From positions 1 through 21,481 of IMG/VR virus record IMGVR_UViG_3300024346_000603: a stretch of DNA of 21,481 nt; one strand, written 5' to 3'. The position numbers and the translations under genes were made by a program. Shown piece by piece: positions 4,427-18,161 of this stretch (its first letter is position 1; every line of letters begins with the position of its first letter). This DNA comes from a virus. The notes beneath the pieces were generated by a model. That model was given only the letters and a program-made list of their open reading frames with translations, did not search any database and was not told where the DNA came from.

Positions 4427-5572
4427 ATGACTAAGACTGAATTAAAAAAACTGGTGACTGAGGTTATGTTAGAATCGTCTGATAATCCGTCATATATTGT
4501 GCGGGCGGATAAGTTTTATTCAAGTCGGGATCCCGATGCGGAGAAAGAGGTCATATATCAAGTTTTCAAAATAGTGAAAATCGATGACCCTGAAAGTTAC
4601 GTCGTCGATTACGATGAGGAATTGGTTGGTGAATATGACTCTAAAAAAGAAGCCGATGCAGTGGCTGTCAGATTAAATAATAAAGATTCTAATTTAAAGG
4701 AAAACGAAGAAGTTCAGTATGTTGAATATGTTAGGGATATGAGTGGAGAAGTGCCATTCCTGATGGGTGCGAAGAAATTTGAATATGTTTGGGCTAAGTA
4801 TCCGACTGGTAAGTTAGATATTGGAGTATATGCATTTGGTGAGGATATGGTATATGCGTATGAATTTTTCAGAAAGATGTATAACATCAATGAGGCGCCT
4901 GGTGTCGTTAAAAGTCCGGTCAGAACGTCCTACCACGTAGATACATATGACCTCTCACGAACAAGTCGCGATCCCGATGCGGAACGTGAAGATGTGTATC
5001 AAGTTAAAAGGATAACGTCCGATGTTCAGGGAGATGATTACGATGAGGAATTGGTTGGTGAATATGACTCTAAAGAAGAAGCTGATGCAGTGGCGGCCAG
5101 ATTAAATAATAAAGATTCTAATTTAAAGGAAAACGCGGAAGTGCAGTATGTTGAATTTGCTAGGGATATGTATAACATAAGCGAAGACGGCGGTAAAACC
5201 AAGAATCCCGGCCGTAAAGGAAAAGTTTCCGATAAATTAGAAGCATCGACGAAATCGAATAATAGATATGATGGTGGAGTATATCTTCCACCAGGATTAA
5301 GAGAAAATGACGAAGAATTCGAAAAGGCCTATGGAACGGTTACGTTAAACGATGTGGATTATGACTATGAAGCGAAAGTTACGTTAAATATATCAAATCA
5401 CGATGAGTATCATGGTCAGCCGGAGATGAATCCGGAGGGTGTGAGTGAGATTGAAATTTCGGATATTGATGTAATTTCTATAGAACCGGAACCAGCAACT
5501 GATTCAGATGGATCCAAAGTTTCAAAATTGATAGATAATGATATAAGAGAGAAGTATGGATCGGGCATGTAA
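4427..5572 (+). CDS. Acidic protein with duplicated module, unknown function
   Basis: A 381-residue acidic protein that I do not recognise. It begins with a short amphipathic helix (MTKTELKKLVTEVMLE) similar to helices in the 728-aa protein and in the protein at 15368. Two copies of one module follow, each starting SRDPDAE and containing YDEELVGEYDSK and EADAVA.RLNNKDSNLKEN, at about residues 34-105 and 179-248. The segment between the copies (KKFEYVWAKYPTGKLDIGVYAF) and the C-terminal part (about 300-381) are unrelated to the module. It has its own ATATTTAT motif and lies just upstream of the tmRNA promoter. No signal peptide or catalytic motif is seen. A virion or scaffold component is possible but unproven. 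Confidence 0.75.
   Translation: MTKTELKKLVTEVMLESSDNPSYIVRADKFYSSRDPDAEKEVIYQVFKIVKIDDPESYVVDYDEELVGEYDSKKEADAVAVRLNNKDSNLKENEEVQYVEYVRDMSGEVPFLMGAKKFEYVWAKYPTGKLDIGVYAFGEDMVYAYEFFRKMYNINEAPGVVKSPVRTSYHVDTYDLSRTSRDPDAEREDVYQVKRITSDVQGDDYDEELVGEYDSKEEADAVAARLNNKDSNLKENAEVQYVEFARDMYNISEDGGKTKNPGRKGKVSDKLEASTKSNNRYDGGVYLPPGLRENDEEFEKAYGTVTLNDVDYDYEAKVTLNISNHDEYHGQPEMNPEGVSEIEISDIDVISIEPEPATDSDGSKVSKLIDNDIREKYGSGM
4607..4741 (+). repeat. Internal 135-bp coding repeat, copy 1
   Basis: This copy is matched by 5036-5170 at an offset of 429 bases (143 codons) with only about ten substitutions by eye, many of them silent. Weaker similarity extends upstream (AGTCG.GATCCCGATGCGGA). It encodes the YDEELVGEYDSK module. 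Confidence 0.85.
5036..5170 (+). repeat. Internal 135-bp coding repeat, copy 2
   Basis: Second copy of the 4607-4741 segment, in frame. The close identity at DNA level points to a recent duplication or to ongoing gene conversion. Confidence 0.85.
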
Positions 5573-5581
5573 TAATTTTGT

Positions 5582-5609
5582 TTGACTTTCTATTTATAGG
5601 GGTTAGGAT
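5582..5609 (+). promoter_or_regulatory. Sigma70-type promoter for the tmRNA
   Basis: -35 TTGACT (5582-5587), 16-bp spacer, -10 TAGGAT (5604-5609). The predicted start near 5616 leaves a short 5' leader that would be removed at 5633. A CTATTTATAG sequence overlaps the spacer, so late transcription is not excluded. Confidence 0.65.
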
Positions 5610-5632
5610 TGGTTAGTTCTTTGAATAATATT

Positions 5633-6011
5633 GGGGATGTACTGGTATCGACTTTGTGTAAGCGATATTTGGGGCACGTAGAGGATGATAGTCGGCCTCT
5701 TAAAAAAACTATTAAAAAGATAAACGCTAAAAACGTAATCGCATACGACTTCACACCGGAAGGTGTCGAGGTCGAAGTTGCAGCCTAATTAGGTTGCCCG
5801 TAGTATAGGATGACGCACGATGGTTCTATATTACGATATTTATGGTGCTAGGTAATTCATTTGATTTGGGTGAGTTATCGAAACAAATCGAATCTAAGGA
5901 TGGGGAACTTTCGAGTTTTAGTATCACCATCACGAAAAAACAAAAACTATAAACGTGTAGTCTTGAATAAAGTTAATGCAGAGGACTTGGGTTCGACTCC
6001 CAACATCTCCA
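5633..6011 (+). ncRNA. ssrA: Transfer-messenger RNA (tmRNA), one-piece
   Basis: tmRNA rescues stalled ribosomes by acting first as an alanyl-tRNA and then as an mRNA for a degradation tag. The 5' end GGGGATG (5633-5639) pairs with CATCTCC (6004-6010). The G3-U70 wobble that identifies alanyl-tRNA synthetase substrates is present, and the discriminator is A6011. CCA is not encoded (GAG follows). The T arm is perfect: TTGGG, loop TTCGACT, CCCAA. The 5' domain has the family-typical CTGGTATCGACTTTGTG. The reading frame resumes after GTAATC at GCA 5741 and ends at TAA 5786-5788, giving tag AYDFTPEGVEVEVAA. AGAGG/CCTCT near 5690-5700 can form part of the first pseudoknot. At 379 nt the length is normal for one-piece tmRNAs. 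It sits between phage genes with its own promoter. Confidence 0.93.
5741..5788 (+). other. tmRNA tag-peptide reading frame
   Basis: Resume codon GCA (5741-5743) to stop TAA (5786-5788). The encoded residues are AYDFTPEGVEVEVAA, which follow the alanine carried by the tmRNA itself. The upstream GTAATC resembles the GTAGTC that sets the resume frame in E. coli tmRNA. The tag is longer and more acidic than the E. coli tag (ANDENYALAA encoded) but keeps the terminal hydrophobic-Ala-Ala that ClpXP-type proteases read. Confidence 0.85.
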
Positions 6012-6071
6012 GAGCACAGTAGAATACCACCTTCACGTTGGTTGTGCTTGAGTCACGCTAAGAGTATTCTG
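6012..6071 (+). ncRNA. Possible pseudoknotted RNA directly after the tmRNA
   Basis: Two interleaved 7-bp helices can form. GAGCACA (6012-6018) pairs with TGTGCTT (6043-6049, one G-U), and AGAATAC (6021-6027) pairs with GTATTCT (6064-6070). Their order makes an H-type pseudoknot; ACCA/TGGT could form a small hairpin inside. The element begins at the first base after the tmRNA discriminator, so it would be the 3' trailer of the precursor or a separate small RNA. No reading frame explains it. Confidence 0.4.
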
Positions 6072-6079
6072 AGTTTTAA

Positions 6080-6150
6080 TAGATAAACACCTGACCGGAG
6101 GATTCCCTAAAGGTTAACCATATATCTTTGATATAGTTTATCTATTTTTT
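6080..6150 (+). terminator. Structured RNA element ending in a T run (terminator-like)
   Basis: A perfect 9-bp helix, TAGATAAAC (6080-6088) with GTTTATCTA (6136-6144), closes a 47-base loop and is followed by six T. The loop contains a TATATC-TTT-GATATA hairpin (6121-6135), the palindrome GGTTAACC, and CCTGACCGGAGGATTCCC. It is larger than an ordinary terminator hairpin. It may end the tmRNA transcript, or be a small structured RNA with a built-in terminator. Confidence 0.45.
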
Positions 6151-6224
6151 AAAAATTGCTCGTTTGATCCCACTGACGAAAAAAGAAAGCTTGGTTTTAA
6201 AATCTTTATATAAAATATTTCCGA

Positions 6225-6977: not shown

Positions 6978-7289
6978 ATGAAAAAAGTATCATATAAACC
7001 TATTATATTGCCATCTGAGGATTCAGAATTAAAGAGTTTCATCGAGAAAAACAAGACGAAAATGATGGAGAATGTATTAAATTCTATAGAATATTCTCTT
7101 GATAACGATCTATCTTCCGTTGAGGTTTTCAAATTCAAACAGTCAGATTTCATTATAACTTTGAACAGAGATTGTTTTTTAGAAAATGTGGAAAATATAT
7201 ACAAGTATTACATTGAAAATCAAGAATATGAATTGTGTCCGAGAGTTAAGAATATTAATTTTAGATTAACAAAAAACTATGAAAGATAA
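6978..7289 (+). CDS. Conserved hypothetical protein upstream of phoH
   Basis: A 103-residue protein with no known motif. It is mostly helical at the N-terminus (SELKSFIEKNKTKMMENVLNS), followed by a segment of probable beta strands (VEVFKFKQSDFIITLN) and a C-terminal helix (YKYYIENQEYELCPRV). It overlaps the PhoH-like gene by 11 bases, so the two are translationally coupled. Similar proteins sit next to phoH in marine T4-like phages as far as I recall, but no function is established. It is the first gene of a unit that starts after a terminator and an ATATTTAT motif. Confidence 0.8.
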   Translation: MKKVSYKPIILPSEDSELKSFIEKNKTKMMENVLNSIEYSLDNDLSSVEVFKFKQSDFIITLNRDCFLENVENIYKYYIENQEYELCPRVKNINFRLTKNYER

Positions 7290-8004
7290 AAAAAATAGAA
7301 AACCAGATACGAGTCCTGTAATACCACAAAATCAAAAGATAAAAAATAAACTTAATATACGAGAGGACCAAATATTAACGGAAAAACAAAAGATTTTTAT
7401 AGAATTGGCGTTAAATAAGGATGTAAAGATGATATTCGTCAATGGTCCAGCTGGAACTGGAAAAACGTATTTATCTGTATTAGTTTCATTACTCTTAATG
7501 AATGAAAGACGTGTGAGTGATTTACTTTATATAAGAAGTGCGGTTGAAAGTAGTGATAGTAAACTTGGATTTTTGCCCGGTGAAAGCAGTGAGAAAATGG
7601 CACCGTATCTTCAGCCACTCTTAGATAAGTTACATGAATTCCTACCTAATTCAGATGTTGTTACATTACAAAAGGAAGGAAGAATAGACTCTATTCCGCT
7701 TGGATTTTTGAGAGGATTAAACTGGAATGCTAAGGCTATCATAGCAGACGAAGTTCAGAATATGACACAGAAGGAAATAGTGACGCTTATTACTAGAGTG
7801 GGTGAGTTTAGCAAAATATTCATCTTAGGGGATCCTGACCAGAGTGATATCGGTGGTAAGAGTGGTTTTAAAAAGATGTATGATGTGTTCGATGACGAGG
7901 AGAGTAGAAATAATGGAATTTTCACATTCACATTTGATGACGATGATATAGTTCGTTCTAAACTTGTTCGATTCATCATTAAAAAAATTAAAAAAGCAGT
8001 TTAA
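7279..8004 (+). CDS. phoH: PhoH-like P-loop ATPase
   Basis: A 241-residue P-loop ATPase of the PhoH-like family, widespread in marine phages and in bacteria. Visible are Walker A GPAGTGKT (56-63), an LLYIRSAVE segment with downstream LGFLPG typical of the family, Walker B IIADEVQN (about 154-161), and GDPDQSD (sensor region, about 188). A basic tail ends the protein. The family is linked to RNA metabolism and, in some bacteria, to phosphate starvation; its role in phages is unsettled and no phosphate control box is apparent here. It starts inside the end of the preceding gene. The next gene has its own ATATTTAT motif. Confidence 0.92.
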   Translation: MKDKKNRKPDTSPVIPQNQKIKNKLNIREDQILTEKQKIFIELALNKDVKMIFVNGPAGTGKTYLSVLVSLLLMNERRVSDLLYIRSAVESSDSKLGFLPGESSEKMAPYLQPLLDKLHEFLPNSDVVTLQKEGRIDSIPLGFLRGLNWNAKAIIADEVQNMTQKEIVTLITRVGEFSKIFILGDPDQSDIGGKSGFKKMYDVFDDEESRNNGIFTFTFDDDDIVRSKLVRFIIKKIKKAV

Positions 8005-15778: not shown

Positions 15779-16192
15779 GTGGCAAATTCTAATTCACATT
15801 CTCCTATAGGGTTGAAAGTTCCATTTGTTAATGGAACCGGTGGATATTTTCAACAATCGTTCGATACTAATGATCAAGTTAAACAAAATCTAATAAATTT
15901 TTTAAAAACCAAAAAGGGTGAACGAAGAATGATGCCGGAGTTTGGAACTAAACTTTATAACGTTTTATTTGAACAGAAGGACGAAAATTTTAATAGTATA
16001 GCGAAGAACATAATATCCGAGGAGATAAATTATTGGATTCCCGAAGTTTCAATTCAAGATATTCAGATTATTAATGTTGAAAACCCAATAGGAGACGATA
16101 ATTATAAACTGAGAGTATCTATCAATTTTATGGTAAAACAAACTAAACAGTTAGATACTGTCATATTTGAATTGCAAAGTACCAGATTATAA
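15779..16192 (+). CDS. 25: gp25-type baseplate wedge protein
   Basis: A 137-residue protein of the gp25/IraD-like family, which joins the wedge and helps start sheath assembly. The family pattern is visible: GGYFQQSFDTNDQVKQNLIN (19-38) with TKKGERRMMPEFGTKLYNVL (42-61), which includes the conserved EFG turn, then a two-strand C-terminus (YKLRVSINFMV). The start is GTG 15779, 12 bases after the previous stop; no ATG is available in a suitable place. The stop is four bases before the gp6 start. Its length is normal for the family. Confidence 0.9.
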   Translation: MANSNSHSPIGLKVPFVNGTGGYFQQSFDTNDQVKQNLINFLKTKKGERRMMPEFGTKLYNVLFEQKDENFNSIAKNIISEEINYWIPEVSIQDIQIINVENPIGDDNYKLRVSINFMVKQTKQLDTVIFELQSTRL

Positions 16193-16196
16193 ATTT

Positions 16197-18161
16197 ATGG
16201 CAACCGTATTAGATAAGAACTTTACACCCCAATCCCGTGATATTCGGTATCTTGGTAGAGACTTTGATCAATTAAAAGCCAATTTAATTGAGTTTTCCAA
16301 ACATTATTATCCCAAAACTTATAAAGATTTTAATAATGCATCTCCGGGCATGATGTTTATTGATATGGCATCATATGTCGGAGATGTTTTATCTTTTTAT
16401 ATAGATTATCAATTTAAAGAAGGGTTGATAAACTTCGCGGAGGAGAGAAAGAATATAATAAATTTAGCAAAATATCTAGGATATAACACACGGCCGTCTA
16501 GACCATCAACTACGTCTTTAGATTTATATCAAATTATTCCATCAAAGAGGGTGGCGAATGGTTCATTTGAACCAGATGAAAGATATTCACTCCGATTGAA
16601 GGAAGGATTGGAAGCACTATCATCAAATAGAGTTTCCTTCATAACTACAGAGGCGGTGGATTTCTCTCTTAACAGTTTAATGTTTCCACGCGTAGATGAA
16701 GTTTTTTCTAGAAACAGTTTAGGGGAGCCGGAATTTTTTCTTCTTAAGAAGTCCGTTAAAGCCTACTCCGGTAAGACAGTAACTAGAACGTTTAATGTAC
16801 AGGGAACGACTCCGAATTTGAGAATAGAATTATCAGATGACAATGTTATTAAAATAGTGAATGTAAAAGACGCGGACAATAATACATGGCATCAGGTGGA
16901 GTATTTGGCGCAGGATCTGATACAATTGCCCGTAGAAAATAATCAATTAAATTTTGAAAATTTTTCAAATTATAAATCTACGGTTCCAAATATTATAAAA
17001 TTTTTGAGAACCAATCGGAGATTTATAACAGAGGTCGATGCTAATAATAAGACATTTTTACAATTCGGAACATCTACGGATAGTTTGGAAGAAGAAATAA
17101 TCGTTCCAAATTCGGAAATATTAGGTGTTGGATTTTCCAACATAAGCAAATATAACTTAACTTTAGATCCTACCAGTTTTATAAAATCAAATTCATATGG
17201 AATGTCACCATTCAACACAACATTAGAAGTTAAATATATAATCGGCGGCGGAATGGATTCAAATACAAATGTGGATGATATTACAATAATAGGTAAGGTT
17301 GAATATGACGATAAGGTGGAATATTTACCAATCGAATTGAACTTGGTTAATACTATAAAAAATAGTCTACGGGTGAACAACTCTATACCGGCTACGGGTG
17401 GATCTGGTCAAGAAAGCGCAATGGAAATAAAACAAAACGCAATTTCCAATTTTGCTGCTCAAGATAGAGTCGTGACGCGGGAAGATTATATTTCTAAAGT
17501 GTTGAATATGCCCGCTGAATTTGGCAGTATTTCCAAGGTGACGGTCGCATCCGAATCAGATTTACATGTTAATAACATAAAACCAATTCAAGGTTTAATT
17601 GATGAAAACAGTAATATATTAGTTGATGAAACTAATAAAGATTTTAGAAAAATAAATCTGGATGGTGTTAATCCGTTTGGGGTAAATTTATATGTTTTAA
17701 CTTATAATGAAAATAAAAACTTAACTAAAGCAAATGAAGCTCTCATTTATAATCTGAGACATTACTTATCTAAATATAGAATGATATCGGATAGAATTAA
17801 TATCATAGATGGATTTATAATAAATATTGGTGTGGATTTCACAATATTAACATATTCCACATACAACAAAAAAGAAGTTTTAACAGAGTGCCTTAATGCT
17901 GTTAAACAATTTTTCGATATAGAATTATGGCAGTTTTCTCAGCCAATAAACATTGGACAGTTGGAATTGGAGATAGCAAAGGTGAACGGCGTTCAAGCTG
18001 TTGCTAAATTAGAAATAATAAATTTAGCTGGAAATGGATACTCAATTTACGAATATGATTTAAAATCCGCCACAAGGAATAAAATTATATATCCTCCCAT
18101 CGATCCATCTGTATTTGAAATTAAAAATCCCGAGGTTGATATACGGGGAAATGTATTATAA
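16197..18161 (+). CDS. 6: gp6-type baseplate wedge protein
   Basis: A 654-residue wedge protein of the gp6/baseplate J-like family, which forms the ring of the baseplate. The start ATG 16197 lies four bases after the gp25 stop; an upstream in-frame TTG at 16167 overlaps gp25 and is rejected. The N-terminal FSKHYYPKTYKDFNNASPGM, then MFIDMASYVGDVLSFYIDYQ and LAKYLGYNTRPSRPS, is the family opening. Later, ISNFAAQDRVVTREDYISKV and LNMPAEFGSISKVTV are the J-like core. The C-terminal beta-rich part follows (RHYLSKYRMISDRINI). Order gp5, gp25, gp6 agrees with other T4-like baseplate runs. Confidence 0.9.
   Translation: MATVLDKNFTPQSRDIRYLGRDFDQLKANLIEFSKHYYPKTYKDFNNASPGMMFIDMASYVGDVLSFYIDYQFKEGLINFAEERKNIINLAKYLGYNTRPSRPSTTSLDLYQIIPSKRVANGSFEPDERYSLRLKEGLEALSSNRVSFITTEAVDFSLNSLMFPRVDEVFSRNSLGEPEFFLLKKSVKAYSGKTVTRTFNVQGTTPNLRIELSDDNVIKIVNVKDADNNTWHQVEYLAQDLIQLPVENNQLNFENFSNYKSTVPNIIKFLRTNRRFITEVDANNKTFLQFGTSTDSLEEEIIVPNSEILGVGFSNISKYNLTLDPTSFIKSNSYGMSPFNTTLEVKYIIGGGMDSNTNVDDITIIGKVEYDDKVEYLPIELNLVNTIKNSLRVNNSIPATGGSGQESAMEIKQNAISNFAAQDRVVTREDYISKVLNMPAEFGSISKVTVASESDLHVNNIKPIQGLIDENSNILVDETNKDFRKINLDGVNPFGVNLYVLTYNENKNLTKANEALIYNLRHYLSKYRMISDRINIIDGFIINIGVDFTILTYSTYNKKEVLTECLNAVKQFFDIELWQFSQPINIGQLELEIAKVNGVQAVAKLEIINLAGNGYSIYEYDLKSATRNKIIYPPIDPSVFEIKNPEVDIRGNVL

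Follow-up and report, generated by a model that had tools for sequence, protein, structure and literature searches.

Identification of a tmRNA gene in a virus contig

The locus at positions 5633-6011 of the virus record analyzed here raises the question of whether a phage lineage maintains a tmRNA (ssrA) gene of its own and, if it does, how such a gene might be expressed and used. The window, by which we mean the whole stretch of DNA analyzed (21,481 bases), is the virus record itself and is unfinished. An original prediction, made from the letters of the window, had placed a complete tmRNA gene here and had named the Rfam covariance model as its check. ARAGORN returned a single, complete, one-piece gene on the plus strand with exactly these ends, and RF00023 matched 5633-6014 across all 374 model positions with 130.6 bits (E 2.8e-51), far above the gathering cut-off of 47 bits. 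The gene is confirmed, with the following tRNA-like parts.

5633..6011, plus strand: one-piece tmRNA (ssrA), from ARAGORN, RF00023 (130.6 bits) and covariation
5633..5639, plus strand: 5' strand of the acceptor stem, G3 at 5635; paired 100% in 17 sequences, G3-U70 invariant
5987..6003, plus strand: T arm, TTGGG-TTCGACT-CCCAA; paired 100% in 17 sequences
6004..6011, plus strand: 3' strand of the acceptor stem, CATCTCC and discriminator A, U70 at 6008; CCA unencoded

The individual parts that had been predicted were likewise all found. Positions 5633-5639 pair with 6004-6010 at 7/7 positions, the third pair being G5635-U6008; the T arm is perfect around TTCGACT; the 5' signature CTGGTATCGAC lies at 5642-5652; and the resume codon GCT at 5726 opens a tag frame (5726-5788) that stops inside the H5 loop. 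The encoded 3' end reads TCTCC-A-GAG, the CCA not being in the gene. The locus thus combines the RF00023 score with the tRNA-like domain, the mRNA-like domain and the four pseudoknots of a tmRNA.

Secondary structure and covariation

Relatives were gathered through two genes of the window, PhoH (39 loci) and gp6 (47 loci).

7279..8004, plus strand: phoH-like gene (PhoH-like ATPase), the syntenic neighbour used for finding relatives
16167-18161: gp6 baseplate wedge

A full-length RF00023 match above cut-off was present in 20 of 48 related IMG/VR records, some of which represent one population assembled from different samples, and four more family members were recovered by the tag pattern. This recurrence shows that the tmRNA is maintained.

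5680..5712, plus strand: pseudoknot PK1 (5680-5684/5696-5700 and 5688-5692/5708-5712), which covaries
5780..5797, plus strand: helix H5, whose loop holds the stop codon of the tag; the helix covaries
5799..5848, plus strand: pseudoknot PK2, stem 1 of which covaries across the family
5851..5892, plus strand: pseudoknot PK3, perfect in the window; family cells paired 68-73% in a poorly aligned region
5899..5937, plus strand: pseudoknot PK4, which covaries

The structure derived from the window, including all four pseudoknots (92 pairs), was tested for covariation on 17 distinct sequences. Paired cells amounted to 87.2%, against 71.0% in shuffles and 41-45% with slid partners; 62 pairs were changed on both sides (42.8 in shuffles), and double-changed cells numbered 271 (86.8 in shuffles). 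None of 500 shuffles reached the observed value on any measure, and the test excludes chance as the source of the structure. Acceptor pairs 1-3 are invariant, pair 3 being G-U in 17/17 sequences, and pairs 4-7 have all been swapped for other Watson-Crick pairs by compensatory changes. Each of the four pseudoknots is paired in the window. Covariation within the family backs PK1, PK4 and stem 1 of PK2, and support for PK3 is less even. The weaker rows of PK3 and H5 are places where the alignment slips, the poorly paired H5 rows being misaligned, and H5 can be re-formed by eye in the slipped sequences (for example GCTGCC/GGTAGC in G010). Resemblances to PreQ1 (20.6 bits, cut-off 39) and SAM-II (19.2 bits, cut-off 44) inside PK1 were below threshold and were taken as chance likenesses of a small pseudoknot.

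A conserved leader with a boxA-like element

5582..5609, plus strand: sigma70-type promoter TTGACT-N16-TAGGAT, a 9/12 match, weak alone; TTGAC kept in most relatives
5616..5624, plus strand: boxA-like element GTTCTTTGA, exact in 12/16 members and similar to elements before bacterial 16S

The prediction that the gene has its own sigma70-type promoter is borne out in part. The match itself is weak, and a scan of promoter-like sites found 3 against a mean of 4.7 in shuffles, but the TTGAC block persists in most relatives, and the leader of one of them (G003/L138) reads TTGACA-N16-TATAGT. Across the 110 nt before G1, TTGAC and GTTCTTTGA are retained and much of the remainder drifts.

The second of these blocks stands, exact, 5-10 nt before G1 in 12 of 16 family members, with one mismatch in two more, and occurs in 5 of 3000 random 45-mers of the window, its own site counted. 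Most of the Actinomycetota 16S leaders examined carry the same 9-mer or a one-mismatch form before 16S, at about 180-190 nt in several, and one (L264) has a promoter-like block followed by TGTTCTTTGAGAACT; the exact 9-mer preceded none of 28 Actinomycetota tmRNA genes. For gamma-proteobacteria the boxA consensus has been published as GYTCTTTAANA (PMC5725501). Two related phages whose records contain no tmRNA, L072 and L081, have TTGACA, TATAGT or TACAGT, and then GTTCTTTGA ahead of another conserved non-coding block. Given its conservation in tmRNA leaders, its copies in 16S leaders and this shared layout, we read the element, an rrn-type consensus in a leader before the RNA, as a probable boxA.

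A boxA in this place would start near the first base of the transcript, at about +1 to +3, whereas in rRNA leaders it comes later, and the motif could therefore belong to the promoter or initiation region, or else serve as a 5' processing signal, with the tmRNA working just as proposed below. We give this a substantial though smaller chance than boxA. Its position near the expected +1 (6 nt after the -10 of the window) and just ahead of the site of RNase P cleavage speaks for it; the distance from the -10, however, varies (6, 9, 7 and 18 nt in the window, L138, L072 and L081), and the 16S-leader copies and the published consensus also argue for boxA. G010 and L194 have no boxA and carry instead TATAAATA, which is T4-late-like, the T4 late promoter motif being given as TATAAAT (PMC9004378); G028 also is without boxA.

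The non-coding block of L072 (2846-3240) and L081 (2910-3470), approximately 390-560 nt long, lies in a tRNA array. It had no Rfam match, so that identity with a known family was rejected, and only these two IMG/VR contigs hold it.

A structured trailer

6012..6071, plus strand: element A, conserved trailer RNA with a predicted H-type pseudoknot (GAGCACA/TGTGCTT crossing TAGAATAC/GTATTCTG)
6078..6150, plus strand: probable intrinsic terminator, an 11-bp stem then TTTTTT, from the fold and a parallel in G010

Element A starts directly after A73 and is found in the window, G017, G005 and G010, with a diverged form in G014 in which the first stem can pair only after a shift of register. Stem 1 changes from GAGCACA/TGTGCTT to AAGTGCA/TGTACTT in G010, and stem 2 from GAATAC/GTATTC to GAATAT/ATATTC or GAATGC/GCATTC in relatives. 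Across all of IMG/VR the element A core was found only directly behind the tmRNA of this clade, and element A in the window had no Rfam match, so it was rejected as a known RNA. In G010 a perfect hairpin with a T-run lies right behind element A; the corresponding hairpin of the window was not listed by a simple terminator scan. Because terminators come after element A in both G010 and the window, the element most likely belongs to the tmRNA transcript; that it acts in 3' processing or stability is a guess.

Other members carry a different trailer element, B (L137, L140, L141, L149, L152, L154), which is about 120 nt long and conserved and shows compensatory changes such as TATTCGT/ACGAATA to TATCCGT/ACGGATA. 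A short protein was considered and rejected, since in-frame stops in G005 mark element B as non-coding.

The tag peptide

5726..5788, plus strand: tag frame of 20 aa, AKNVIAYDFTPEGVEVEVAA, stop TAA, from ARAGORN; homologous tags in relatives

The family tags have the core NVIAYDF in common. Among 16 sequences its codons change at 4/7 third positions and at 0/14 first or second positions (Fisher p = 0.006), which, for these few sites in related sequences, points to selection on the peptide. The C-termini differ (VAA, AVA, VVA and VAT), the tag of the window ending VAA. When one genome per species from 84,980 species was searched with the tag-core pattern, which needs GCW-RAN before NVIAYDF and would miss extra-codon variants, a single stretch was found and no bacterial tmRNA with the tag. 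That one match, L166, was rejected as a tmRNA, the tmRNA of that genome lying elsewhere with the tag GENNYALAA.

The differing ends invite the proposal that the phage tmRNA competes with the host tmRNA and gives chains a weaker or different tag, so that ClpXP is spared or another protease or adaptor is engaged. Ends other than AA occur in 8 of 13 distinct family tags against 3 of 28 Actinomycetota tmRNA tags, other viral-contig tags deviate too (VAV, QTV, LVA, KVA), the core is conserved at the peptide level, and degradation in E. coli is affected when the last three residues are changed (PMC9382460). On the other hand, the window's tag has an ordinary end (VAA), in E. coli the variants LVA and AAV continue to act as degradation tags (PMC9382460), and the deviating family tags are related and hence not independent. 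We consider such redirection possible but rather unlikely.

Deviating ends were also seen more widely. In a set of 33 viral-contig tags obtained with a tag-blind 5' pattern, 13 have them, and the tmRNAs L002, L003, L012, L019, L024, L026, L046 and L049, many of which are two-piece, end VAV, QTV or LVA, with KVA also among the set. The tmRNA of the 193,745-bp record G028 (L155) has a 30-aa tag, ANNDISEMLGEISANPDAVLAEFASENVLV, without any usual degron end.

Phage context and maintenance of the gene

15779-16192: gp25 baseplate wedge

In a broad sense the genome is T4-like, as it has both gp25 and gp6. The description does not hold more strictly, since gp6 is only 34-38% identical to its nearest named relatives, the closest isolates being Microcystis phage Mel-JY01 (37%) and Flavobacterium phage immuto (34%). 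RF00023 gave no match in immuto and none above cut-off in Mel-JY01, and a match was present in the huge phage LR756508.1. Neither the window nor its tmRNA matched phages or plasmids by megablast or blastn, and nothing similar to 5500-6200 was found at the blastn level among 50,697 phage records.

The locus had been called no host fragment, and this stands: gp25, gp6 and phoH share the contig, and the same tmRNA locus occurs in many phage contigs, in most cases upstream of phoH within a few kb (the distance being about 10 kb in G010 and G020). A T4-type phage lineage has its own tmRNA, with gene, structure, identity pair, tag, leader and trailer conserved. Co-inheritance of tmRNA and phoH is only partial (rho 0.65, or 0.41 without G028); strict co-inheritance was rejected on this partial correlation and on mosaic pairs such as G007-G012, which indicate exchange among related phages.

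Imprecise prophage excision capturing the host ssrA has been proposed for other phages (PMC9004378), and a host gene taken up not long ago, and carried by chance in a neutral or decaying state, would be an analogous case. We consider this very improbable here, because the tmRNA is intact over a clade diverged by up to about 43% in tmRNA sequence, with an invariant identity pair and strong covariation, and no bacterial genome searched has the tag pattern inside a tmRNA. A host-phage chimera, conceivable in an unfinished 21.5-kb record, was checked as the original prediction had suggested and can be dismissed with near certainty, since the tmRNA locus recurs in many independently assembled phage contigs, one of which (L039) carries a tmRNA identical to that of the window.

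The protein encoded at 4427-5572, upstream of the tmRNA, has an internal repeat present twice; it begins ELKKLVTEVM, resembling SLRKLVKEVM within the 745-aa protein at 749-2986. Used as queries, the upstream neighbour P0002 and the 745-aa gene gave no additional relatives useful for context.

SmpB and the proposed role

A search of 43 related records, which are genome fragments, turned up no SmpB gene, and so a self-contained system of tmRNA and SmpB is not seen in these incomplete genomes. Host SmpB would therefore be used, unless the gene sits in the missing parts. That the identity pair and the tag are conserved speaks for an RNA working in trans-translation, and the role that we consider most likely is ribosome rescue in infected cells by means of host SmpB, with expression through an rRNA-style leader.

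Beyond this we infer a scheme that runs from transcription through NusB binding and charging to rescue and what becomes of tagged proteins. Host RNA polymerase would transcribe the phage tmRNA from the sigma70-type promoter, and a boxA at the 5' end of the transcript would recruit host NusB-S10, as in rRNA operons, allowing a long untranslated structured RNA to be completed and to fold. RNase P and 3' trimming would free the tmRNA, host enzymes would add CCA, and host alanyl-tRNA synthetase would charge it through G3-U70. With host SmpB the tmRNA would then free ribosomes stalled on broken mRNAs. The rescued chains would receive a tag peculiar to the phage, whose end is a protease signal of the usual or a slightly changed kind. 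For phage tmRNAs already known, the suggested roles are upkeep of the hijacked machinery or the recycling of host proteins (PMC9004378). A more speculative extension, which we put forward only tentatively, is that in this lineage rRNA-style promoter-boxA leaders express long structured RNAs, namely the tmRNA and a further RNA in relatives, via host antitermination and that an NVIAYDF tag with an altered end changes the fate of incomplete proteins.

Relation to known systems

That tmRNAs occur in a limited set of phages is right insofar as carriers are a minority, but their rarity was somewhat overrated: about 2.3% of 18,146 phage genomes have one (PMC9004378). Given this prevalence and the 79 unique phage sequences among 97,179 in a 2025 tmRNA database (PMC11915505), the core of the gene is of an already known kind. 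The leader, the trailer and the tag family set it apart as a variant; the original prediction, correct about the gene, had overlooked these features, namely the leader resembling boxA, the pseudoknot and terminator on the 3' side and the family of phage-specific tags, and also the absence of SmpB.

With the bacterial one-piece tmRNA (RF00023) the window's gene has in common the tRNA-like domain with G3-U70, H2, PK1-PK4, H5, the resume codon and the tag frame; it differs in being phage-encoded, in its NVIAYDF core, in the unencoded CCA and in the boxA-like leader. Methylophage Melnitz and pelagimyophages are likewise T4-type phages of aquatic bacteria with an early-type promoter (PMC9004378). 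The Melnitz tmRNA, however, is a permuted two-piece form of alphaproteobacterial type with a glutamine riboswitch (PMC9004378), whereas that of the window is one-piece, with a boxA-like leader and a different 3' element; no riboswitch reached its Rfam threshold in the window. A phage-borne ssrA is also shared with Bacillus phage G and mycobacteriophages Bxz1, Cali and Wildcat (PMC4131195), which are different phages. The boxA of rRNA operon leaders and lambdoid phages (PMC5725501) has the same motif in a 5' leader of a long untranslated RNA behind a sigma70-type promoter; the putative boxA described here precedes a tmRNA and lies very close to +1.

The clade thus provides a family that is conserved and covaries and in which the identity pair, the tag peptide and the expression signals all bear clear marks of selection, and why phages carry tmRNA becomes testable, in terms of which tag residues count and whether an rRNA-type leader raises yield. 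If the boxA reading is true, the range of Nus-factor antitermination, described for rRNA, for lambdoid phages and for a small number of genes, would come to include viral structured RNAs.

Two tmRNA-type loci were also observed in LR756508.1, a 484-kb uncultured phage: L214 (92434-92880) and L216 (414804-414915). One is a full tmRNA whose tag is at most 32 aa long and ends PAAV; the other, a tag-less mini-tmRNA of 112 nt with G3-U70, is like the inhibitory form of phage DS6A (PMC4131195).
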